The translations under genes were made by a program, and so were the position numbers. This document shows, piece after piece, positions 6,344 through 29,449 of a DNA stretch of 45,284 nt. Source of the stretch: a bacterium (GTDB taxonomy: Bacteria > Hinthialibacterota > Hinthialibacteria > OLB16). Numbering within the stretch: position 1 is the stretch's first letter; each line of letters begins with the position of its first letter. The notes under the pieces were generated by a model. That model ran no database searches. It saw nothing but the letters and a program-made list of their open reading frames with translations, and was not told the DNA's origin. The stretch spans positions 1 to 45,284 of the forward strand of contig JAJVIK010000027.1 of assembly GCA_022072055.1 (NCBI GenBank), written 5' to 3'.

Positions 6344-9300
6344 TTGGCTCCAAAGGGGAAAGGCTCCTTCATAGGCTATCGGTGGGTGTGGGGAGCGCTG
6401 GCAGCGGCGCTCTGCCTGGGTGAGTCGGTTTGCCTTGCCCGGGACCTCACCATCGGGAATGTGCCGTTCACCATGACGGTCACCCCGCGGATCAACAACC
6501 TCGCCACCTTCAAGCGATACCACCTCAAGGACATCGAATCCGCCCAGGCCCTCCAGGTCAGCGCCTATGTCTACTGTAGGGTCGAGTGTCCCGACGGCAA
6601 TCCGATGACGGATGATTGCGAGACGCTCCCGACCTCGGTCACGATGCGCTGGTCGGTCATTGACGCCACCGGAACGATCATTACCTCGGTCACTTCGCTC
6701 ACCAACGGAGTCGGCTGGAGCGGGTTCGTTTTCGATGACTTTTTTGAAATCTATTACACGCAGTTGGGGACGATTTCGATCCCTCTGGCGGGCCTCGACC
6801 TGGAACGCAAGCAGTACCGAATCGAGGCCGAGGTCGATCCCTTCAACGCGATTGCCGAAACCGACAACGGAAACAACGAAAGCACCTCCACGGACTCGTT
6901 CTTTTATACGATTTTTTCAGGAATTCTGAATTATGGCATGATCCCCACTCAGCTCACTTCGTTGAGCCTGGGGGGCCTTTGTGTGGTCTTTCCCGGTTCG
7001 CCGGTGATTCCCCTATCAGCGGCCATGGCGGAATGGACTCATGAGTGGGGGACAAGCAGCTTCTCGCCGAATCCAGCCTGTTATCACGACTCGCTCAACG
7101 CCGATGGTTTCTCGATAGACCTCACCGTGGCCGGGGGGACCCCGGCGGTCAACATCGGAACACTGGGCGGGACCACACCCAGCGGACTGATGGCCGAAAT
7201 CCGGAATGTCACCCTGGACTCCGGGGGCGCGCACTTCTCGCAAGCCGCGGTGTTCCTTCCCGATGAGGTCACCTTTCACAACCTGAAGACCCCTGGGGAT
7301 CCCAAGCAGGGCTACCAACCGTGCGGAAGGAACAAATTCGATTTCTTCTCCGCCATGGGCGACTTTGTCAACATTTATGACATCCCCGAACTGAACCAGG
7401 CGACACAATACGCCTATCACGGCTACGGCCACCCCTTTGTCCTGTTCGCCGACAGCGCCCGCTTCAAGCTGGGGGGGATGGACGGACTCTTCCTGGACAA
7501 TGTCCACGCCATGCACGCCCACTTCCCCTCCTATCACAACCTGAATCCCAAGGACCCGCGTGGTCCCACCAAACAGCGCAAGGGTTTTCCCACCAACGAT
7601 GTGGTCTTCATGGGCTATGACGCCACCCCGATTGCCCTGGCGCTGATCAACCCGAATGGAATCCAGGCCCAAGACCTCAACTTCAGTGATAACCCACCGG
7701 TGCTCACCACCCCGCGGACCTCCTTCCCTCAAGGGAGGATGTACTGGAACGCCTCCTTTAAGACCACGGTCGCCGATAATCGCCTGGTTCCCCAAAAGCT
7801 CCCAGTCCACAACTATCGGATGAAAGCGCGTCAGACCTGCCCGGATGATGATTGCGGCGACCCGATGGGGCCGGAAAACTACGATGTCTCCACGGATGAT
7901 GGGGATGTCTGGATGACAGACGACGGCTCCCTGGGGAGCCGCTTTACACTCCTCGGAAAGAACACCGAGTGGGGCAAGTGGGATTCCGGCAGCCCGACCT
8001 TCCGGCGCGATGACAGCCCGAAGGCGGGTGTTTTCTACCTCCCGGGAACTTATCTTCCGGGAACCTCAGACCCAGCGGTGCGCCGTGTGGCGCAGGTGCT
8101 GCTCGGTTCACGCCTGTTCGATGGGGCCGGCGGAGTTCCAGAGACCCTCTCGCCGCTTCTGGAGGGCGGCGGCGGCTCCCACGCCGACCAGGGCAACGGG
8201 TTCTACGCCGGTCTGACCATGGGGCCGGAGCGTCTTGAGACCCTTAACATGGGCGCCGGGGAGCTTCTTGAGGACGATCAGCTGATTCGCTTCAACGGAA
8301 ACTCCACTCACGACAGCTTCGATATCACCGACTACACCAAGTATTTCCTGCGCCCTTCCGGAGTCACCGGGGTGTTTAACACCAGCTTCATGGGCGTGCT
8401 GAACATTTACGGCTACGACATCGATTTCCGTCGCTTCGCCTTCCGCCAGGTGTACAACAAGCTCGACGGCAAGACCTTCCTCGATGGGACCCTCGACATT
8501 CCCTATCCCTGCGATATCACCGTGTCGTTCCTGGAACTCGACCTGCTCTGCAGCGGAGACCTCGGTTCCGGGGAGGTGGACAGCGAACCGGAAACCGATT
8601 GGCGCCACCCGGACGGTGTGGACAACGACGGCGACACCTTCACCGACGAGGGCAACCAGGTGCTCTCCTACTGGCAAACTCCCATCTCGATTACCGGGAT
8701 GGCCTTTGTCCCCACCGCGATGAGCGGCGACGCCTGCCTGGACAACGAAAACAAGGAACTTCAACTCCAGACGCTTGATGATGTGAACGGGATCGAGAAC
8801 ATCCTCACGATGAAGGCCATCTACCCGGTCAATGGGAAGTTGAAGAACCAGACCATGACCAGCGCGGCGGAAAACACCTACGACAAACCCCAGTCGAGCG
8901 CCGAGCCGGGGTTCAGCATCCGCTTGGAAAAGGCGTACCTCAATCAGCTCGCCAATTACCCGATGGCGCAGGAGGGATTCCTGGCCACGGCGGGCCTCAC
9001 CGATGTGCCGCTGTTCAACGACATGGAGACGCTGCTCCATCTGGATAACCCCACCCCGACCGGATTGGAGCTTCCGGATGAATCCTTCGAGATTCATGTC
9101 TTCAAGGATGAATCCGACACCGACACGGACAAGAACGGCATCCCGGACGCGTACGGCTCGAATGTGACAAATTACCGGAACCAACTCGCCAATGGCGAGG
9201 ACGCCCCCGAGTCGGGCGACCCCAGACCGCGCGCGAAATACTCCTGGCCCGCATCCGGGTTGCTTGAGCTCAATTACCCGCTCACATATAACCGCTCGGA

Positions 9301-12037
9301 TGGCTCCACTTCCCCACAATTCCTCGGGATCAAGAAGGTCTACAACCTGATCAGCGACAGCAATCCGGTCATCACCATCAATAGCGTGCCGGATTATATC
9401 AACCCGATCCGGACCAAATTTTCGTTCGGGGTGAGCGCCGACTTCGCCGCGATCACCAATTTCCAGGTGAACCTGAACGACCTGGGCGATATCGACGATT
9501 TCCTCCACACATACCTGGGGGTCGATCCGAGCTTCAGCCTTGAGGACATTTTCCAGAATGTGCTCGACGCCGAAAACATTGTGAAGTCCATCACCGGCGG
9601 GGACCTCACCCAAGTACTCGCCCCGATTGTGGACGCCGCCCTGGACGCCGGACCGGTGGACTCGGTGATCACCGATTTCGCCGACGCCATCGGGGTTGTG
9701 AACCGCATACCCCAGGAAGTCAGCGCCCTGACCGCGGACGTGCTGGATGAGTTCCGCGCCCAACTGCTCGCGGAGATCACCGGGGGAGCGGTCCCCCTGA
9801 ACGGCCCCTCCGGCTTCCTTCAGACTCTGTTCGATGATCTCGCCGCTTATGTCGCCGCGCCCGAGGACATTGTCAACGCTTATCCCGGCAATCCGCACAC
9901 CCCGGCTGAGATTGAGGCCTTCCTCGAAGCCTTGGAGGAGATCCGCAACCGTCTTTCGCAAGTCGAAAGCCTTCTGGACGATGTCCACGACGGCATCTCC
10001 ACGGCCAAGGACGAGGTCAACGACCTTTCCGACGACCTCGACGCGGCCCTGGCGGACGCCACCGCCCTGCTCACGGCGGTCAAGAACATCCTCAGCAACC
10101 CCGCCATGGGGCTTGGGGAGTTCTTGGGGCTTGCCAACAACCCGATCATCCAAACCGTTGATGACGTGAAAGACACGGTCCGCGATGTCCTTGAGGCCAT
10201 CAAGTCGGTGGACATCCACCTGATCGCGGACGCTCTTCAAGCCGCCGCTCAACTCGCGGGCGGTGACATCGACACCTCGCTGCTGGACGACATTGTGAAC
10301 ACGATTGATTCCCTCACGAGCTCGTTGGAGGAGATCATCGACCAAGCCGAGAACCTCCTCCAAGGGCAGTATGGCGCCATGCCCACCCTTTTCGACGACG
10401 CCGAAATGCTCCTCGACCAGGTCCTTGCCAGCCTCAACCAGGTCAACACGCAGATGGACGGGATCATCGCCATCCTGATCGGCTACATGGACGCCGCGGA
10501 CGATCAGGTCGGCGCGGTTCGAGGCGTGGTCCAGAGCCTGCGCGAACTGGTCACCGCCGATCCGCCCGATCCGGACATGGCGATCCTTCCGGACTACAAC
10601 GCCCTTCTCGATCTCGGACGCGACAAGCTCAACGATCTCGCGATGACCCTGGTGGACGATCTTCTCGCCCAATTCCCCACCGGCATGCTGCACGACGAGC
10701 TCGCCAACATCGACAGCCTCATTTCGGGCGACCCGGCCAACGCCTTCCAACACGCCTTCGTGGACGCGATTGAAGACCTCGTCGGCCTGCCTCTAGAGCA
10801 GGCCCAGATGGAGCTGGTCAATGAGCTCCAGATGGTTCTGGAACAAGCGGTGAGCGTGCTGCCCACCCCCGACGCCGACGACATCAAGGGGATCATCCGC
10901 AACGCGATCCTGAACAGCGACCCGGTGATCGACTTGAACGAGGCCTTTTATGATCTGCTCTCGCCCGTGGCGGACGCCGTGGACGAAGTCGCCACTCAGT
11001 TCACCAGCAGTATCAACAACCTGATCCAGCAGGCCATCGAGGCGGTGACCGAGGCGATCAACGCCGCGATTGATTCGGTCACAAGCGCCATTGCGGATTT
11101 CGACCTGGTGGGCGGGCGCCTGGACGGCTACGCGATTGTCAACCAGGAGGAGCTGGAGCAGCTCCACATCGAGGCCGAGTTCACCTTCGGCGGGACCCCC
11201 GATCCGACCACCTATTTCGCCGCCCTCGACATCACCAGCTGGAACTCCGAGAACGGGAAGGGGGCCTGTGTCGACGATGGGACCGGCTTGATCGACGCCG
11301 TGATTTCCACCCGCGACATCTCCGCCGAGATGCTCGGCCTGCCGATCGGCATCAAGGAGGCCGCGCTCGGATTTACGCTTGACCAGGGGATTCCCATCGG
11401 GGTCTTCGGGCGGGTTTACACCTCCGGCGAGCTCAATTTCGAGGCCGCGGCGATCCGCGACATCGGACTCGAATTCGGGATGGGGGCCATCGAGAACTAT
11501 GTCGGCGGCAAGGCCGCCGGACGCTTCGATTCGTACACGATCAATGTGATCGCCTTCTACTTCGGAAAGACCTGCGACTATGGGGTCCTTGAGCGTCTGG
11601 ATCCCGAGGCCGCCGCCTTCATCGGCGAAATGGTTCCGCTGATCGGAATCTATGTCCGCGGCGCGGTGTCCGCTCCGATCATCAACTACGGGTGCTTCCT
11701 CACCATCGGCGCCGGGGTCGATCTGGGGGTCTGGTTCCTGAACGACACCTTCGGCGGCCTCTTCGGCGGATCGGTGTACGGAGAGGCGATCTGCCTGGTG
11801 TCGATCCGCGGCAAGATCACCCTGCTGGGCCAGAAATCGGGCGAGTATTTTGAGTTCGCCGGAAACGCCTGGATCGCCGGGGGCATCGGCTTCTGCGAAC
11901 CGGAGGATTGGAACAGCATCGCCGATGTTCGCGATGACGACTGGTGCCTTACCGGGGACGCCCAGTTCGGCGGAACCTACAGCACCGAGAACAACGATTT
12001 TGAACTGATGGGACCCGACTTCAGCTGTTGCGATTAG
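6344..12037 (+). CDS. Giant exported protein (1897 aa) with CARDB-like, helical and beta-rich regions; function unknown
   Basis: Not recognised as a whole. Residues 1-33 form a Sec signal peptide (hydrophobic WVWGALAAALCLGESVCLA, cleavage likely before RD). Residues about 40-165 look like a CARDB-type beta sandwich ending in AIAETDNGNNES. Around 753-766 is a DGVDNDGDTFTDEG calcium-site motif and around 920-932 a second one, DTDTDKNGIPDAYG. From about 1026 to 1590 the chain is acidic and almost wholly helical with heptad-like stretches, probably a long coiled rod. The last 300 residues are glycine- and beta-rich with several cysteines, ending in CCD. The start is TTG at 6344; no in-frame ATG fits before the signal peptide. 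No C-terminal anchor is evident. First gene of a three-gene unit. Confidence 0.8.
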   Translation: MAPKGKGSFIGYRWVWGALAAALCLGESVCLARDLTIGNVPFTMTVTPRINNLATFKRYHLKDIESAQALQVSAYVYCRVECPDGNPMTDDCETLPTSVTMRWSVIDATGTIITSVTSLTNGVGWSGFVFDDFFEIYYTQLGTISIPLAGLDLERKQYRIEAEVDPFNAIAETDNGNNESTSTDSFFYTIFSGILNYGMIPTQLTSLSLGGLCVVFPGSPVIPLSAAMAEWTHEWGTSSFSPNPACYHDSLNADGFSIDLTVAGGTPAVNIGTLGGTTPSGLMAEIRNVTLDSGGAHFSQAAVFLPDEVTFHNLKTPGDPKQGYQPCGRNKFDFFSAMGDFVNIYDIPELNQATQYAYHGYGHPFVLFADSARFKLGGMDGLFLDNVHAMHAHFPSYHNLNPKDPRGPTKQRKGFPTNDVVFMGYDATPIALALINPNGIQAQDLNFSDNPPVLTTPRTSFPQGRMYWNASFKTTVADNRLVPQKLPVHNYRMKARQTCPDDDCGDPMGPENYDVSTDDGDVWMTDDGSLGSRFTLLGKNTEWGKWDSGSPTFRRDDSPKAGVFYLPGTYLPGTSDPAVRRVAQVLLGSRLFDGAGGVPETLSPLLEGGGGSHADQGNGFYAGLTMGPERLETLNMGAGELLEDDQLIRFNGNSTHDSFDITDYTKYFLRPSGVTGVFNTSFMGVLNIYGYDIDFRRFAFRQVYNKLDGKTFLDGTLDIPYPCDITVSFLELDLLCSGDLGSGEVDSEPETDWRHPDGVDNDGDTFTDEGNQVLSYWQTPISITGMAFVPTAMSGDACLDNENKELQLQTLDDVNGIENILTMKAIYPVNGKLKNQTMTSAAENTYDKPQSSAEPGFSIRLEKAYLNQLANYPMAQEGFLATAGLTDVPLFNDMETLLHLDNPTPTGLELPDESFEIHVFKDESDTDTDKNGIPDAYGSNVTNYRNQLANGEDAPESGDPRPRAKYSWPASGLLELNYPLTYNRSDGSTSPQFLGIKKVYNLISDSNPVITINSVPDYINPIRTKFSFGVSADFAAITNFQVNLNDLGDIDDFLHTYLGVDPSFSLEDIFQNVLDAENIVKSITGGDLTQVLAPIVDAALDAGPVDSVITDFADAIGVVNRIPQEVSALTADVLDEFRAQLLAEITGGAVPLNGPSGFLQTLFDDLAAYVAAPEDIVNAYPGNPHTPAEIEAFLEALEEIRNRLSQVESLLDDVHDGISTAKDEVNDLSDDLDAALADATALLTAVKNILSNPAMGLGEFLGLANNPIIQTVDDVKDTVRDVLEAIKSVDIHLIADALQAAAQLAGGDIDTSLLDDIVNTIDSLTSSLEEIIDQAENLLQGQYGAMPTLFDDAEMLLDQVLASLNQVNTQMDGIIAILIGYMDAADDQVGAVRGVVQSLRELVTADPPDPDMAILPDYNALLDLGRDKLNDLAMTLVDDLLAQFPTGMLHDELANIDSLISGDPANAFQHAFVDAIEDLVGLPLEQAQMELVNELQMVLEQAVSVLPTPDADDIKGIIRNAILNSDPVIDLNEAFYDLLSPVADAVDEVATQFTSSINNLIQQAIEAVTEAINAAIDSVTSAIADFDLVGGRLDGYAIVNQEELEQLHIEAEFTFGGTPDPTTYFAALDITSWNSENGKGACVDDGTGLIDAVISTRDISAEMLGLPIGIKEAALGFTLDQGIPIGVFGRVYTSGELNFEAAAIRDIGLEFGMGAIENYVGGKAAGRFDSYTINVIAFYFGKTCDYGVLERLDPEAAAFIGEMVPLIGIYVRGAVSAPIINYGCFLTIGAGVDLGVWFLNDTFGGLFGGSVYGEAICLVSIRGKITLLGQKSGEYFEFAGNAWIAGGIGFCEPEDWNSIADVRDDDWCLTGDAQFGGTYSTENNDFELMGPDFSCCD

Positions 12038-12054
12038 GCTGAGATGGAATTGCG

Positions 12055-15000
12055 ATGCGCACTATGACCTTGGACATACGCACCGGAAACCGAGCCAGGC
12101 TCTTGGCAACCGCGCTGGGATTCTGCCTGGGATTTTCCGCGAGCGCGGCGGACCGGATGTATTTCACCGGGATGGTGGAGCCGAACGCCGACACCCTCAT
12201 GAACCAAGTGGTCCTGGTTTGGGGACCGCTGGAGCAAGCCATCCCGGATGACCTCACCGGCTTCCGACTGTATCGCCGCCCGATGGCCGGGGTGTTTGCC
12301 CAGATCGCCGAGCTGCAACGGGGTTTGGCGGACCAAGCCACCATTCTGTCTTTTTTCGCGGAGCCGGGAGAGGACGCGCGCGCGGCGGATATCGAGGAAT
12401 GGGCCTTCAACAGCAGCGGCGGCGCAGTGGTCGGGATCACCGAGACTGTGGCCTATCTCCACGACATTTTGAGCGTGACCCCCGGCCACCCCAACTACAA
12501 CCCGATGAATGTGGTCTTCCTCTCTCGAATGAACCCGAACGTGGCGCGCGCCCTGGGGCTGGCGTACATCGACAGAAACGCGCTTCCGCCGGGGAGTTAT
12601 GAGTACATGCTGACCGGCCTCATGGGAACCACCGAAACCCTACCCCTCGGCAAGACTGTGGTGGACAGTTCGGTCGAGGATGTGTTACCCGCTCCCGGCG
12701 GGTTTTCGCAGGTCTTTGTCGGCGGTTGCTCGGTGATCGGAAGGGGCTTGGATGACCGCCGCATTCACTTCCGCTGGGATGTGCCGCTTGAACCGGAACG
12801 TCTGCGCCAGCGCATCCTCACCTATGGGTATGATCTGTTCCGCTCGGACGCCCCGCTGGCGCTGGGTCCGAATGATTTGCGCAACATGCAGATGTCGGGC
12901 ATGTTCAACCCGGCGCTCACCAAGGTCAATCGGGTTCCGATCGTGGTCGCTGGGCAACCGGCGGCGGAGGGCCGCGAAAGCTATCTGGCCATCGACCAGG
13001 GCGACTACAACAACTTCAATTACCTCCAGCGCGGACGAACCTACTCCTACTATTTGGTGGCGCGCGACCTCACCGGCAAGTATTCCGAAATGGCGCCGGC
13101 GCTCACCGCGATGGTTCCGGACGCCAATCCGCCTCCGGCTCCTTGGGGTGTGCGCTCCGAGGAGGTCAAGGACCCCATGACCCCCACCATCCCACGCCTT
13201 CAGATCGTGTGGGATGAGATGGACAAGCCCAATTTCCTCAAGAATTACGGGACTCGGCGGCATTTCGTGAATCCCCCCGCCTACGCCAATCCGCTCGAGC
13301 TCCACTATGTCCCGGATGGGGAGCAGATCGAGCCGAAGAACCTCCGTGAAGTCGATTTGGATGTGGACCGCTATCTCCTCTTCCGCTTCTTCACCCAGGA
13401 AGACGCGCAGGGCTGGGGAGTGGACAGCGACGTGGACTACTGGCCGGACGAGATCGAGGACGCCTCCGGGACCGACAAGTGCGATCCGATGAGCCATCCG
13501 GCGGGGAACCCTCCGGAGCTCGCGGCGATTATCCCGACCTCCGACGCCACCACGCTGCGGACGCTCCGCAACGGGATGAAGCAGCGCTTTTTCCGCGACA
13601 CGGTCCCAATCGACGACAACCATGTCTACTGGTACCGCTTGATCGCGGTGGACCCGTTCGACAACCAAAGCCCGCTTTCACCCCCGGTGCGCGGAGTCCT
13701 ATGGGACCGTGACCAACCCGACCCCGACGCCGAAATCACCAAGGAGCGTTGCCGATACACGGTGGAGAGGGACCCCAACTGCTTTTTCACCGCGGGTGGA
13801 ATCCGGATTAAGGCCTCGGACGAATCCGCGGCCCGTGAGAACCCCGAGGAAGGACGAGCCCGATCCGTTTGTCTGTATGAGGTGTGCGTGGAGCGCGATC
13901 CCTTGGGCAACCCCATTGGCGAAACCCTGGTCTTCATCCTCGAGAAAGAGATTCGGCAGAGGATGGCGATCATTCTCATCGATGACCTGACCCGGATTAT
14001 GGACTGCCGCTCCCTCTGCGGGGATCGGAGGGAAGATCGGAGCGCGATTTTCGTGCTCCGCTACTACGATGCGCGGGGGCACATCCTCGCTTCATCCGAA
14101 TACTTCTCCGGACTCATTTGCCAAACGCAGGGTCCCGATTGCTTCATCCTCAAGGAGGACTGCAGGGAGGTTCCGGTTGATCCCGGCGAGACCCTTGATC
14201 CGGGGGACGACATCCACATCTGTGTCGAGCTCAAGGCCGGTGAGCGCGCGCGCATCTTCCATGAGCTCAATGGGAAGATGACACCGTTCAAAACCATTCA
14301 CGCCGCCTCGGATGTGGCCCTCATGGATTACTGCGAGGATATCGACCTCACCGCGATTGTTCCGGCGGGGGCCTGCTTGGGCGTGAGAGTGTTCAGCAAG
14401 AACAATGTCGGGTCGTTCATCAAGTACTTGAACTGTGTCACCATCCCCTCCGGAACGCCGGAGGCGCCGCTGATGCACAGCGTGGATCCCGCCGGAACCA
14501 ACCTCGCGCCCAAGTTCACGGTCCGCTGGGCCGCGCAGAGCGAGGGGCTCTCCGCTTTTGTCCTGGCGATGCGTCACCAGAAGGATGTCCGATTCGAAAC
14601 CTACTGGATCGATGATTCCAACGGGGCAATCTCGTATTTGAACGGCCTGTACGAAGTCATGGTGGACCTGAACCCGGCCACCGACCTGTACAAGGAGTGG
14701 TGCTTCGAGGTTCGCGCGGTGGACAAGACCCTGCGAAGCAGCCCCTGGTCGGAGGAAATGTGCGAAACCTGGGAGCCGGAGCCGGGAGACCACCTGACTT
14801 GGCCACCGGTCCCCGAAACCCCCGCTGGGAGCGGAATCCTCGCCTATTTCCTGGCCACGCCGCTAATGCCTCAAGTGGTGCTGGTGCTCAGCGAGGATCT
14901 CACCGGCAAGATCAATCTGGACAATCGCTGCAATGTCCAATTTCCGGATTGCCGGGAAACCCAAGGGGAGGGATGCCTGCGGCCGTTCACCTTCTTCTGC

Positions 15001-15381
15001 ACCGGGATCTGCGATGAACTCAAGGCGGCCAATCAGTATGGAAAGTTCATTGTTTTCCGTCAGGAGGAAGGGAAGGACTTTGTCCAGGTCAGCCCCCTGA
15101 TCGACACCTTCTGGTGCTACCGCGAGGAGACCAAGCCCGCCGGCGGCGGATTGATCAGCCAGGAAATCCTGGATGATCCCTTTGTGTTCCTCGCGGCCCC
15201 CAACCCGAGCTTCATCTTTCCGGTGCCCATCCGCCCGGAGGTGAGCGGTCTCCGGCTGCTTTTCGCGGACAATTACCCGTGCCGGCGCGGGAGCAAGGTG
15301 CGCTATCAGGTGATGGTGGTGGATCCGATCACCGGCGAGGGAACCGCCATGCACACCAGCAACTGGCTGGATATCCCCTGA
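12055..15381 (+). CDS. Large exported multi-domain (fibronectin type III-like) protein, 1108 aa; function unknown
   Basis: Second gene of the unit, 17 bases after the first. Signal peptide at residues about 15-31 (LLATALGFCLGFSASAA, cleavage before DRMYF). The mature part consists of repeated beta domains resembling fibronectin type III modules: VVLVWGPL...LTGFRLYRRP near residues 45-80, RGRTYSYYLVARDLTGKYS near 325-345, VYWYRLIAVDPFDNQSPLS near 525-545 and WCFEVRAVDKTLRSSPWSE near 883-901. About twenty cysteines in the second half suggest disulfides, fitting an extracytoplasmic place. Two Met starts (12055 and 12064) are possible. No enzyme motif was found; a scaffold or surface role is an inference from the domain style. 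Confidence 0.8.
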   Translation: MRTMTLDIRTGNRARLLATALGFCLGFSASAADRMYFTGMVEPNADTLMNQVVLVWGPLEQAIPDDLTGFRLYRRPMAGVFAQIAELQRGLADQATILSFFAEPGEDARAADIEEWAFNSSGGAVVGITETVAYLHDILSVTPGHPNYNPMNVVFLSRMNPNVARALGLAYIDRNALPPGSYEYMLTGLMGTTETLPLGKTVVDSSVEDVLPAPGGFSQVFVGGCSVIGRGLDDRRIHFRWDVPLEPERLRQRILTYGYDLFRSDAPLALGPNDLRNMQMSGMFNPALTKVNRVPIVVAGQPAAEGRESYLAIDQGDYNNFNYLQRGRTYSYYLVARDLTGKYSEMAPALTAMVPDANPPPAPWGVRSEEVKDPMTPTIPRLQIVWDEMDKPNFLKNYGTRRHFVNPPAYANPLELHYVPDGEQIEPKNLREVDLDVDRYLLFRFFTQEDAQGWGVDSDVDYWPDEIEDASGTDKCDPMSHPAGNPPELAAIIPTSDATTLRTLRNGMKQRFFRDTVPIDDNHVYWYRLIAVDPFDNQSPLSPPVRGVLWDRDQPDPDAEITKERCRYTVERDPNCFFTAGGIRIKASDESAARENPEEGRARSVCLYEVCVERDPLGNPIGETLVFILEKEIRQRMAIILIDDLTRIMDCRSLCGDRREDRSAIFVLRYYDARGHILASSEYFSGLICQTQGPDCFILKEDCREVPVDPGETLDPGDDIHICVELKAGERARIFHELNGKMTPFKTIHAASDVALMDYCEDIDLTAIVPAGACLGVRVFSKNNVGSFIKYLNCVTIPSGTPEAPLMHSVDPAGTNLAPKFTVRWAAQSEGLSAFVLAMRHQKDVRFETYWIDDSNGAISYLNGLYEVMVDLNPATDLYKEWCFEVRAVDKTLRSSPWSEEMCETWEPEPGDHLTWPPVPETPAGSGILAYFLATPLMPQVVLVLSEDLTGKINLDNRCNVQFPDCRETQGEGCLRPFTFFCTGICDELKAANQYGKFIVFRQEEGKDFVQVSPLIDTFWCYREETKPAGGGLISQEILDDPFVFLAAPNPSFIFPVPIRPEVSGLRLLFADNYPCRRGSKVRYQVMVVDPITGEGTAMHTSNWLDIP

Positions 15382-15390
15382 GCGTAACGG

Positions 15391-18300
15391 GTGAAGCGGC
15401 GAAAGAAGACCATGAAGAGCGAACGAATGCAGACATTCCGGTCCTTCCTTCCGTGCCTGACCGCGATCCTCGCGCTCGGGGGCGGCGCCTTCGCGTACGA
15501 CCCCGAAACCAACGAGAATGTGCTGGTCTTCGACGCTGCCGGAAATGTCCTCAAATCCTTCCATGTCGGGGATTACACCACCCTGATCGACGCCGCCAAC
15601 ATCCATTCCGAGGAATACAGCCCCGGCTCTCCCCCAAACCTCGATTCGACCGGAACCACGCCTTACCTGTACATGGGCGGGGAACGGTGGGTGCCAAACG
15701 ACCTGTCAGGACAGTTTCCGGTCTTCCCGAGCGCCCTGCCGGAGGTTTCGCTGTTCAGTTTCGGCGAGGCCCTGCTCCCCAGTCCTTCCTCGGCCACTCC
15801 CGGCGTGTCCCTCACTCCCGGCGGGGGCGCATACCCCCATTCTCTCCAGGTCGAGGTGAAGGGGTTCCCGCCCTCCTCCACAGTCGAGGTGTATGACGAG
15901 GGGACCGGGATGTGGAACATCTTTGGGAATTCCACCTCGGTGATCCTGATCCAGAGCCGCAACCTCCAGGTTCGCAGCTTGGATGGCGGGATCTATTCGC
16001 CGATCAAGTCGGTCACTTACACGATTGTTCAGGATGCGACCGCGGACACGGACTTTGATGGCATCCCCGACCTGATCGAAGTCGAGCTCTCCATGGAACA
16101 CCCTTCGATCCCGTTTGATCCGTTCGTTCCGGACGCCGGGAAGGATTCGGATTTGGATGGCCTGCCGGACCTTGATGAAATCCTCCGCGGCTCGGATCCG
16201 GAAGGGGCGGACCTTGACGGAGACGGATGGAGCGACGCGGATGAGGTCGCGATGGGAACCAACCCGAACAACCCAGCCGATTTTCCTCCCGGTCCGGTCC
16301 CGGTCTATGCTCCACCGCTCCTTCCAATTGACACCGATGGGGACGGTTGGGCGGACTTCGACGAGATCTTGCGCGACACGCTAGCCAACGACGCCTCCAG
16401 CCTCCCCACCGCACGCTGGCTTTATGAAGTGGAGAGCATCGCCGATGGAGGAGTGTCCGGCGCCGTGGTCTGCCCGACCTGTGAGCGCCACCTTTCGGTC
16501 GCTGAAGTGGCGGGCGCTGCACTGCATTCCGCGACACTTGTGGACGACACCTTCATGGGGGTGCGGACCCCGCGCGGGCGTCCCTCGCTGATTCGGTTCG
16601 CCTCGAAATCGGAACGTGTTCTCGGCGCGCTCACGCAGATCGACACCAGCTGGTCGGCGCGGCGTTTCCTGCCCGCGGTGCAGGATCCTTCACCGGGGGA
16701 TATCGATCCCGCCGATTGGTATGAGGCGGGCAAAGGGCCGGTGGACTTGCTCGCCAACTGGCTTGCCGCATACGAGGCGCTTCTCGACGCCAATCTGCTG
16801 CTGCCGGCGGTGAACGTGGTGGTCTCCGCCACGACAACAGCGCCCGCCGCCCTGCTCGATCGCGCGCTGACCTTCGCCGAATGCGCACGCCTTGGACGCC
16901 AGCCGACCTTCGAGGAGTGCAGCGGCATCGCCGGTCGAATCGGGATCAGCCCCTCGCGGAAGGCGGTGGATGCCCTTTCCTCGCGTCTCCAGATTCCCGC
17001 CCAGGTTCCCGACTCGCTCCTTCCGGGCGAGACCCCTGAAACCTTCCGTACCCAGGGACGTCGCCTGAACGCCCTCATGGAGGACCTGCAGGCGCTCGCC
17101 GAAAACACCGATCTCCAGGCGCGGCTCCTCGAGTGCTACGCGATGTTTGCCGCGGGTCAGGACCTGGAGGTCTTGATCTTCCAGAAGACCGGGAACCTGA
17201 ACCTGTTCTATCCCGTGGTCCTGGCTCTCAGTCTCTCCTACCAGGAGATGATGGATTCCGGTTATCCCCTCTGCCTGCTCCTCGATCCCTTCGCCGATCT
17301 GGACGCCGACATGCTGGCCAATTTCATCGAGGCGCTGGGGTACAACAAGGGTCGCGAAACCAGCATCTTCCACCCCGACACGGATGGAGATGGAATCTCC
17401 GACACCGAGGACAATTGCCCCACCGTGGCGAACGGATCCGGCGATGGCGACAGCAATGGGGCCGGGGATAGTTGCGATCCGGACGACGATGGCGATGGTC
17501 TCCAGGATGTGGTCGAGGATGGCCTCGGATCGAACGGGGGAGTTGTGGACACGGATGGCGATGGTTGGCCGGATGGCGCTGAGTTTCTGATGGGACTGAA
17601 TCCGGTCAATCCGAACGACGCCATCCTGCGCCACGAGACGATTCCCTCCACCTCGGCCTTCGCGACCGAGGTCTATCCCAACCCGGTGGTCGGGGCTCCT
17701 CCCTTTGTGTTCGCCAACCCGGTGACCCAAGACAGCGGGCTTTCGACCCTCGCGAATCTCCGCACGGTGACCAACCTCTCCTTCCAGCATCGAGTGGAAA
17801 AGGACCCGGGCCAGGGTGGCGCCTTGGGACCCGAGCAGATTTCTTATCTGGTTCTGTCGCACGCGCCGAGCGGGTGGAATCGAGGTCGTGTGGCCGTGGG
17901 GAACGCCGCTGCGCATGTTGTCTTTGCGGTTCCGTTCCCCTTTGGAATCAAGCCGTTGGTGTTCGCAATGATCCAGTCTGAAAATGATCCGACGCGGACT
18001 TACTATCCGGAAGTCACCAACATTACAAACACGGGATTTTCGGTTCGTGTGCGCGCCAACGCCGCCCAGACCCCACCCGCGGCCTACATGGAGACCGTGG
18101 CCTGGGTCGCCTTCCTCCCCGGAACTCTCCCGGTCCCCGGCGAAGCCTCGAGCGCCATGGTGAGCTCGGTCAGTCAAACCATTCCGTTCTCGTCGGCCTT
18201 TGCCGCTCCCCCGGATATCCTGGTCTCCTTGGAGGGAGTCGGGACCCAAGTCCTGGTCTCAAATGCGACTACCACCGGTTTTGACGCGCGGATTGTGAAT

Positions 18301-18957
18301 GACGCCGTGGTGGGCGGGACCCCGGCCCCGCAACGTCTTTCCTGGATGGCCCTTGGCCCCAAGGCGTGCGAGGACCCCGACCACGACGGCATCTGTTCGG
18401 ATGTGGACAACTCCCCCATGGTGTATAACCCCGACCAGGTCGACACCGACATGGATGGGATCGGGAACGTGGAGGATGTGGACGCCGACAATGACGGTCT
18501 TCCCGACATCTATGAGATCGGCATCGCCGATTGCGGTTTCTCTCCATTCAACAGCGACAGCGACGGCGATGGAATCGACGATGGAGATGAGGATTACGAC
18601 GGTGACGGCTTCAGCAATGAAGAGGAAGTGAATGGGGGTTCGGATCCGTTTGATCCCAATCAAGGCCCGGGCGATGTCACCCCCACTCCGAGTCTGACCG
18701 CCACTTCTCCCTTCCCGCCCACGGCGACCCCCACCCCTTCAATCACTCGCACCCCGACACAAACCGCAACCGCGACTCGAACACTCTCGCCCACCATCAC
18801 CTCGACCCCCTCGGTGACCCCGACGCAAGGGTTGATCATCTACAATCCAATCTATGTGTTCGAGGTGCTCTTCAAAGAACCGGTGACACCGATTAAACTC
18901 TACGAACTGGCGAAGTACTGGTATCTGCCGGGGCCGACTCCCACGCCGACTCCTTGA
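15391..18957 (+). CDS. Large exported calcium-repeat protein with possible H-type lectin-like domains, 1188 aa
   Basis: Third gene of the unit, 9 bases after the second. Signal peptide with a KRRKK-rich start and core CLTAILALGGGAFA, cleaved before YDPETN. Thrombospondin type 3-like Asp repeats (DTDFDGIPD, DSDLDGLPD, DLDGDGWSD and similar) lie at residues about 217-293, 663-733 and 993-1090. Two tandem beta domains at about 787-986 have the IPFSSAFAAPPDILVSL...TGFDARI pattern of H-type lectin-like modules. A Pro/Thr linker (about 1096-1146) precedes a short terminal piece ending in PTPTPTP. GTG at 15391 is used here; ATG at 15412 is an equally good start. Likely calcium-stabilised and on the cell surface or released. 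Confidence 0.8.
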   Translation: MKRRKKTMKSERMQTFRSFLPCLTAILALGGGAFAYDPETNENVLVFDAAGNVLKSFHVGDYTTLIDAANIHSEEYSPGSPPNLDSTGTTPYLYMGGERWVPNDLSGQFPVFPSALPEVSLFSFGEALLPSPSSATPGVSLTPGGGAYPHSLQVEVKGFPPSSTVEVYDEGTGMWNIFGNSTSVILIQSRNLQVRSLDGGIYSPIKSVTYTIVQDATADTDFDGIPDLIEVELSMEHPSIPFDPFVPDAGKDSDLDGLPDLDEILRGSDPEGADLDGDGWSDADEVAMGTNPNNPADFPPGPVPVYAPPLLPIDTDGDGWADFDEILRDTLANDASSLPTARWLYEVESIADGGVSGAVVCPTCERHLSVAEVAGAALHSATLVDDTFMGVRTPRGRPSLIRFASKSERVLGALTQIDTSWSARRFLPAVQDPSPGDIDPADWYEAGKGPVDLLANWLAAYEALLDANLLLPAVNVVVSATTTAPAALLDRALTFAECARLGRQPTFEECSGIAGRIGISPSRKAVDALSSRLQIPAQVPDSLLPGETPETFRTQGRRLNALMEDLQALAENTDLQARLLECYAMFAAGQDLEVLIFQKTGNLNLFYPVVLALSLSYQEMMDSGYPLCLLLDPFADLDADMLANFIEALGYNKGRETSIFHPDTDGDGISDTEDNCPTVANGSGDGDSNGAGDSCDPDDDGDGLQDVVEDGLGSNGGVVDTDGDGWPDGAEFLMGLNPVNPNDAILRHETIPSTSAFATEVYPNPVVGAPPFVFANPVTQDSGLSTLANLRTVTNLSFQHRVEKDPGQGGALGPEQISYLVLSHAPSGWNRGRVAVGNAAAHVVFAVPFPFGIKPLVFAMIQSENDPTRTYYPEVTNITNTGFSVRVRANAAQTPPAAYMETVAWVAFLPGTLPVPGEASSAMVSSVSQTIPFSSAFAAPPDILVSLEGVGTQVLVSNATTTGFDARIVNDAVVGGTPAPQRLSWMALGPKACEDPDHDGICSDVDNSPMVYNPDQVDTDMDGIGNVEDVDADNDGLPDIYEIGIADCGFSPFNSDSDGDGIDDGDEDYDGDGFSNEEEVNGGSDPFDPNQGPGDVTPTPSLTATSPFPPTATPTPSITRTPTQTATATRTLSPTITSTPSVTPTQGLIIYNPIYVFEVLFKEPVTPIKLYELAKYWYLPGPTPTPTP

Positions 18958-20888: not shown

Positions 20889-20916
20889 TCCCCGATTGAT
20901 TCAACCTCCGCCAGGT

Positions 20917-20951
20917 CCCACCGCGCCGAGAGCGATTCTCGGCGCGGTGGG
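20917..20951. terminator. Long GC hairpin between two convergent genes
   Basis: CCCACCGCGCCGAGA at 20917-20931 pairs perfectly with 20937-20951 around a GCGAT loop. It occupies the 67-base gap between the cytochrome gene and the reverse-strand lpxC-fabZ. No T tract follows on either strand, so it may end transcription weakly, protect 3' ends, or act with Rho. Confidence 0.65.
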
Positions 20952-20955
20952 TGAC

Positions 20956-27832: not shown

Positions 27833-27955
27833 GGGTCACGCTTTTCCACGCTCGGATTGGATCTCACTTGAGAAAAAGGCGGTTGCGAAAAAGGATCCTT
27901 GCGTTCAGGTCACGGGTCGGCATTCTCTTAGAGAGCGAACGCGGAGGTGAGGGTG

Positions 27956-28237
27956 ATGAATCAACGGCTGACAATCACCCTCCCGGAGGAAACGGTTCAG
28001 TTGACGGACCGGACGATTCCAAAGCGGGAGCGGAGTCACATCATCAATGAGGCGGTTCAGCAATACTTGAGGAACGCCGCGCGGAAGCGGCTCCGAGATT
28101 GCCAGGTGCTCAATCAGATCCGGTCCGTTGACAATCGGCGACTCAAACGAAGGCTTTTCATGGTCTCCCCGGAGACCATGAAAAGGGTCGATGAGGCCCT
28201 CTCGATCAGTCTTGGATTGACCGACCTCGGACGGTGA
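27956..28237 (+). CDS. Fused antitoxin (ribbon-helix-helix) head and MazF toxin tail, probable TA relic
   Basis: A 93-aa protein. Residues 2-40 are a ribbon-helix-helix DNA-binding domain of MazE-like antitoxins (RLTITLPEE...RSHIINEAVQQYL). Residues 49-88 read QVLNQIRSVDNRRLKRRL...ETMKRVDEALSISLGL, which is the C-terminal end of MazF/PemK toxins (family pattern QIRTxDxxRL...MxxVDEALxISLxL). The antitoxin tail and most of the toxin, including its catalytic N-terminal half, are missing, so an in-frame deletion seems to have fused the two genes. GGAGG site eight bases before the ATG. It may still bind the old operator. Confidence 0.7.
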   Translation: MNQRLTITLPEETVQLTDRTIPKRERSHIINEAVQQYLRNAARKRLRDCQVLNQIRSVDNRRLKRRLFMVSPETMKRVDEALSISLGLTDLGR

Positions 28238-28246
28238 TTGTCTCCC

Positions 28247-29398
28247 TCACCCTTTCTTCAGCGCCTCCACGTAGTCCGTTTTCTCCCACGTGAAGTCGTC
28301 ATCCTCTCGCCCGAAGTGGCCGTAGTTGGTGGTCTTAGAGTAGATCGGGCGGCGAAGTTTGAGACGTTCGATGATCGCGCGCGGACGCAGATCAAAAACC
28401 CTCCGGACACGCGCCGCGATTTCCGTGTCCGGGATGGTTCCCGTGCCGAAGGTGTTGACCATCAGCGAAACCGGTTGAGCAACGCCGATGGCGTAAGCCA
28501 CCTGGGTTTCACAACGCTCCGCGAGTCCGGCCGCGACAATGTTCTTGGCCACATGCCGCATGGCGTAAGCAGCTGAGCGATCCACCTTGGTGGGATCCTT
28601 GCCCGAGAAGGCCCCGCCGCCGTGACGGCCCATGCCGCCGTAGGTGTCCACGATGATCTTGCGTCCGGTGAGCCCGGCGTCCCCATGCGGCCCGCCGATC
28701 ACAAAACGACCGGTCGGATTCACATGGAACTTGGTGTCCTTGTCCAGCATGTTCGCCGGAATGACCGGCTTGATCACCTTTTCCACGATGTCCTTCTGAA
28801 TCTGCGACTGGGTCGCTTCTTCATCATGCTGGGTCGAGACCACGACCGCGTCCACGCGGGCAGGTTTCCCCTCCACATACTCGACAGTCACCTGAGATTT
28901 TCCATCCGGGCGGAGGTACGGAAGCACGGAATCCTTACGGATCTGGGTGAGGCGCTCGGTGAGACGGTGCGCGAGGTAGATCGGCATCGGCATCAGGGTC
29001 GGGGTCTCCTTGCAGGCATACCCGAACATCATCCCCTGGTCCCCGGCGCCTTGCTCGTGATCGTCCTTCTCATCCACGCCCATCGCGATATCCGGGGATT
29101 GCGGATCGATGGCCACGAGCACCGCGCAGGTCTTCCAATCAAAGCCCATGCTGGCATCGGTGTATCCGATGCGTTTGATCGCGCTGCGCGCCACCTGCTG
29201 GAAATCCACGAAACACGAGGTTGTGATCTCCCCCGCGATGACCGCCACCCCAGTGGTCACCATCGTTTCGCACGCCACGCGCCCCATCGGGTCCTGGGTG
29301 AAGATGGCGTCCAAAACCGAATCGGAAATCAGGTCGCAAATCTTGTCGGGATGGCCTTCCGTGACCGATTCCGAGGTGAAGAAAAAACGCTCGCTCAC
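28247..29398 (-). CDS. metK: S-adenosylmethionine synthetase
   Basis: A 383-aa cytoplasmic enzyme making S-adenosylmethionine from methionine and ATP. Both signatures are visible: [17 protein letters not shown] (about residues 113-129) and [19 protein letters not shown]. The N-terminal [18 protein letters not shown] includes the catalytic His. GTG at 29398 with GGAGG eight bases upstream gives the normal family start; the longer frame to 29440 adds 14 atypical residues. It lies 51 bases after the nucleotidyltransferase in the same direction. No SAM riboswitch is visible in the short leader. Its 3' end is only nine bases from the convergent relic gene. Confidence 0.96.
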
Positions 29399-29449
29399 TG
29401 CACTGTCCTCCAAGGGTCGTTTGGATGGGGCCAACCCCACCCTGCATCT

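Follow-up and report, generated by a model that had tools for sequence, protein, structure and literature searches.

Introduction

In MazEF systems the antitoxin MazE is bound by the β1–β2 and β3–β4 loops of the toxin MazF, with the C-terminal part of MazE in contact, and catalysis by the toxin relies on Arg25 and Thr48 as key residues (as outlined in PMC7354611). Antitoxin and toxin pieces in a single chain are known in nature from 195 genes catalogued in PMC11980606, in which an antitoxin domain is fused to a RelE/ParE-superfamily toxin domain; the table of that catalogue has no MazEF row. Fusions of MazE to MazF have been engineered (PMC10305079), and no natural MazE–MazF remnant was seen among the papers listed by our literature searches.

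Here we describe a frame on contig JAJVIK010000027.1 that, like the RelE/ParE fused genes, links antitoxin and toxin segments in a single polypeptide, but that keeps only a third of the toxin. Comparison with intact operons indicates that it is very probably the remnant of a mazEF operon, in which MazE residues 1–48 became joined to MazF residues 83–123 by deletion. With the MazF, EndoA and PemK toxins (PF02452; 4of1, 4mzm, 4mdx and 4me7) the fusion has the last 41 residues in common; relative to EndoA it is without the first 74 residues or so, including Arg25, Thr48 and the MazE-binding loops. It also resembles the mazE–mazF pairs of Pseudanabaena plasmids, in the start of MazE, the end of MazF and their order and strand, but mazE and mazF are complete there and overlap by 19–22 bp, whereas the fusion lacks 317–320 bp of the middle and is left as one frame.

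Results

The window, by which we mean the whole stretch of 45,284 nucleotides analysed, holds a 93-codon open frame on the plus strand at 27956–28237. It has no internal stop and yields a product of 93 amino acids, in agreement with the first-pass annotation, which had called the frame intact. The ribosome-binding site that the annotation described as strong, GGAGGTGA at 27943–27950, is indeed a good one, with the qualification that positions 27949–27957, up to the start codon, are able to pair with 27974–27982. This 9 bp inverted repeat (27949–27982, plus strand; fold z −2.4) may represent an operator, a hairpin at the start codon or a chance occurrence. No promoter was found in a scan that used the sigma-70 pattern only. 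Another inverted repeat, of 14 nt and 93% (27970–27983 and 28229–28242), flanks the body of the gene.

The head of the fusion (27956–28099) corresponds to MazE residues 1–48, the ribbon-helix-helix DNA-binding part of the antitoxin. It is identical at 25 of 48 positions (52% by tblastn) to a Pseudanabaena MazE encoded directly 5′ of a MazF, and at 26 of 48 to a second version. In profile searches it stays under the cut-offs (RHH_1, 13.4 bits against 20.5; NCBIfam MazE NF050104, 15.7 against 65), and two intact relatives of the head are also weak in the same libraries, scoring from below cut-off to just above. A ribbon-helix-helix start had been assigned to residues 2–40; the identity was right and the extent too short, as the MazE match reaches residue 48. 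The tail (28106–28228, fusion residues 51–91) equals Pseudanabaena MazF 83–123 at 24 of 41 positions (59% by tblastn) or, in the other version, MazF 82–122 at 21 of 41. The PemK_toxin profile PF02452 finds MazF similarity in fusion residues 43–85 (E 4.1e-5, 24.2 bits against a cut-off of 23.1), and solved MazFs are matched by residues 50–90, the best being the S. aureus MazF chain 4of1 (E 2.7e-6). The earlier assignment of a MazF end to residues 49–88 was thus correct in kind but not at its edge, the match running from about residue 51, possibly 47–48. Between head and tail lies the putative deletion junction (Cys-Gln, 28100–28105), which can be placed only to within a few codons because many MazFs have R-D-S at the fusion's R-D-C. 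Two final codons past the MazF match, with the stop, complete the frame (28229–28237).

Much of both proteins is missing. Only positions 65–108 of the 109 of the PF02452 profile are present, and the alignment of the tail to EndoA starts at residue 75 or 76 (75–115 or 76–116 only), so that the Arg25 and Thr48 region and the MazE-binding loops lie outside it. What is left of the toxin is, we presume, the last strand and the C-terminal helices of full MazF. When whole MazE and MazF, from Pseudanabaena (L019) and from a genome of the same class (L003), were compared by tblastn with 4 kb of the window around the fusion, the head and tail stretches alone were matched, with no further mazEF remnant; MazE beyond residue 48 had no match there, and thus its C-terminal, toxin-binding half is gone. 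Beside the antitoxin head there is no separate complete toxin gene, metK lying on the opposite strand about 10 bp past the stop. AlphaFold2 modelled the fusion with a mean pLDDT of 79 and a pTM of 0.41, predicting a single long helix from residue 23 to 68 through the junction; in this model the head, for which the alignment has no rows, is poor and the tail is without a MazF-like strand. The MazF of L003, modelled without an alignment, reached a pLDDT of 36.

Full mazEF operons with ends matching those of the fusion exist in a related genome and on plasmids. Among 98 genomes searched (the organism's own and related ones) matches were present in five, its own included. One of these, G011 of the same class, has both halves about 330 bp apart, in an intact two-gene operon (L003, 995–1629) of overlapping frames for a 94-residue antitoxin and a 131-residue MazF; the fusion is identical to it at 20 of 46 positions in the head and 22 of 41 in the tail, and differs in no longer being intact. 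A tblastn search of 72,556 plasmid records gave nine with a match, and in three of these, all Pseudanabaena (NZ_CP112879.1 at 45393–45988, NZ_AP017562.1 and NZ_CP112876.1), a single locus matches the query over at least 80% of its length in two segments; the annotation there gives a hypothetical protein and, after it, a PemK/MazF toxin. Three templates imply losses of 320, 317 and 320 bp. Neither this particular operon in intact form nor a strain predating the deletion turned up among the genomes searched, so the event is not directly observed.

The head–tail fusion was found in none of the 13 other genomes of the phylum, in none of the 97 others of the set of 98, and in none of the nine plasmid and seven phage records having a match. 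In another phylum 311 of 398 genomes match, and among the matches listed all start at query residue 26 or later, none reaching the head. Low-sensitivity scans of genome contigs and of viral contigs, which depend on short exact patterns, returned one relative (L016, an ordinary mazEF) and none, respectively. The first-pass annotation had asked whether the fusion is kept across species, and the genomes, plasmid records and phage records searched contain no second species with it.

The fusion sits between two converging genes, an upstream neighbour encoding a 299-residue protein without a Pfam family (P0004; 26933–27832, plus strand) and metK downstream (28247–29440, minus strand). In a genome of the same family (G001) the homologues of P0004 and metK are likewise convergent, separated by 49 bp that contain no mazEF, so the operon was either inserted in this organism's own lineage or lost from its relative; in G002 the two counterparts are on different contigs. 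Third-position GC of the fusion is 0.72, slightly below the 0.74–0.84 found for most of the window's long genes.

The tail is no more diverged than the tails of working MazFs are from one another. Compared with the Pseudanabaena pair L019, the intact operon of the related genome (L003) scores 24/41 in the tail and 26/48 in the head, and the fusion 24/41 and 25/48. The C-terminal MazF motif QIRxxD..RL ... ISLGL is kept: ten columns are invariant in 11 MazF tails and the fusion retains nine of them, the sole exception being at the junction. Given that the tail shows no decay, the deletion probably happened late relative to the age of the family. Absence of decay reflects either a recent deletion or selection, and a single sequence cannot separate the two.

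Discussion

The matching ends of full mazEF operons, together with the absence of the fusion from every other genome searched, support one of the two readings offered by the first-pass annotation, that of a fossil left by a deletion. The starting point would have been an ordinary mazEF operon sitting between two converging genes. Loss of the middle follows from the comparison with intact operons, most simply through one internal deletion of about 320 bp, which would have removed MazE from residue 49 through MazF residue 82 and left the two stumps in one frame by chance. Such an in-frame join has about one chance in three, which counts against the remnant reading. No toxin activity would be expected of the product, because Arg25, Thr48 and the antitoxin-binding loops of MazF lie in the lost part, nor would it be a working antitoxin, since it is without the C-terminal half of MazE that binds the toxin. 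What remains is at most a leftover DNA-binding head, which may still occupy the old operator. The fusion is most likely a recent, harmless leftover and not a new kind of regulator. If so, a mazEF operon can die safely in one step, toxin core and antitoxin tail being removed together, after which the cell is neither poisoned nor in need of the antidote. There is also a caution here, in that profile matches on both halves of a short frame should not be taken for a new domain architecture.

The other reading offered by the annotation, a single-protein regulator or decoy that binds MazF partners, appears improbable to us. Under it the MazE head would bind DNA and the MazF tail would serve as a new dimerisation or partner-binding piece, making the protein, for example, a decoy for further MazFs or a repressor of other mazEF operons. 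The open frame, the good ribosome-binding site and the retained MazF tail residues are in its favour, as is the existence of natural toxin–antitoxin fusions, although those catalogued carry toxins of another superfamily. An open frame, that ribosome-binding site and a tail without excess drift also fit selection on the product. Against a regulator stand the lack of a second species with the fusion among the genomes searched and the predicted model, in which one long helix crosses the junction and the tail has no MazF-like strand. A cognate partner was sought within the genome at eight other PemK/MazF places, whose local alignments to the tail range from 14/34, the best-scoring, down to 6/36 and 6/14; since none of these proteins matches the tail closely, the decoy idea is without an evident partner. 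One of the eight (L014, G000:C10:114437–114649, minus strand) is itself truncated, its 71-residue frame matching residues 38–110 of another MazF of the genome (L010), and tblastn over its 3.2 kb locus did not find the start part. A variant in which the product of the deletion was later recruited, becoming an orphan regulator or decoy for mazEF-type operons in the form of a ribbon-helix-helix repressor with a MazF tail, and in which the palindrome within that tail (described below) doubles as the metK terminator, seems to us very improbable. A demonstrated activity of the product would make this a case of a regulator arising from such a deletion; short of a second species that retains it, the fusion is ordinary. 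That the join was made by an error of assembly or binning we regard as exceedingly improbable: the assembly, with 32 contigs, 96.6% completeness and 2.05% contamination, may be a draft, but the join is internal to a contig of 45 kb, and P0004 and metK, which flank it, are adjacent in the related genome too.

A further proposal concerns the DNA of the tail and is compatible with the remnant reading. The part of the frame that encodes the MazF tail contains a perfect palindrome (28154–28185) with 15 bp arms and a 2 bp spacer. It lies 62 bases past the metK stop and is the nearest strong hairpin behind that gene. The stretch may have been kept for the sake of a metK terminator and not of its protein, in place of the 9 bp hairpin found in the P0004–metK gap of the related genome, and we consider this doubtful. 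Its perfect arms of 15 bp exceed the longest arms of 9–11 in ten shuffled windows, a scan marks it as resembling a terminator on the metK strand, and a perfect hairpin is also present in the convergent gap of the window at 20889–20955. However, the stem is followed by a poor T-run, chance alone would give the scan 0.9 sites of this kind, and a terminator would account for the palindrome and not for the fusion. As to the origin of the palindrome, when the same protein was recoded with synonymous codons, two of 2000 draws had an arm of 15 and one had an arm of 14, so the protein sequence permits the palindrome but seldom yields it, and chance is disfavoured. Derivation from a repeat element was rejected, neither arm occurring elsewhere in the genome at up to one mismatch. 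Our guess would be that one arm was copied onto the other by template switching, for which the sole support is Phe68, a residue unseen in 11 other tails.

The window contains three other perfect hairpins, with arms of 12–15 bp. The one in the convergent gap already mentioned, at 20917–20951 between two converging frames, is a perfect 15 bp hairpin without a T-run. Elsewhere, at 6344–18957, three very long frames (1897, 1108 and 1188 amino acids) follow one another on one strand.
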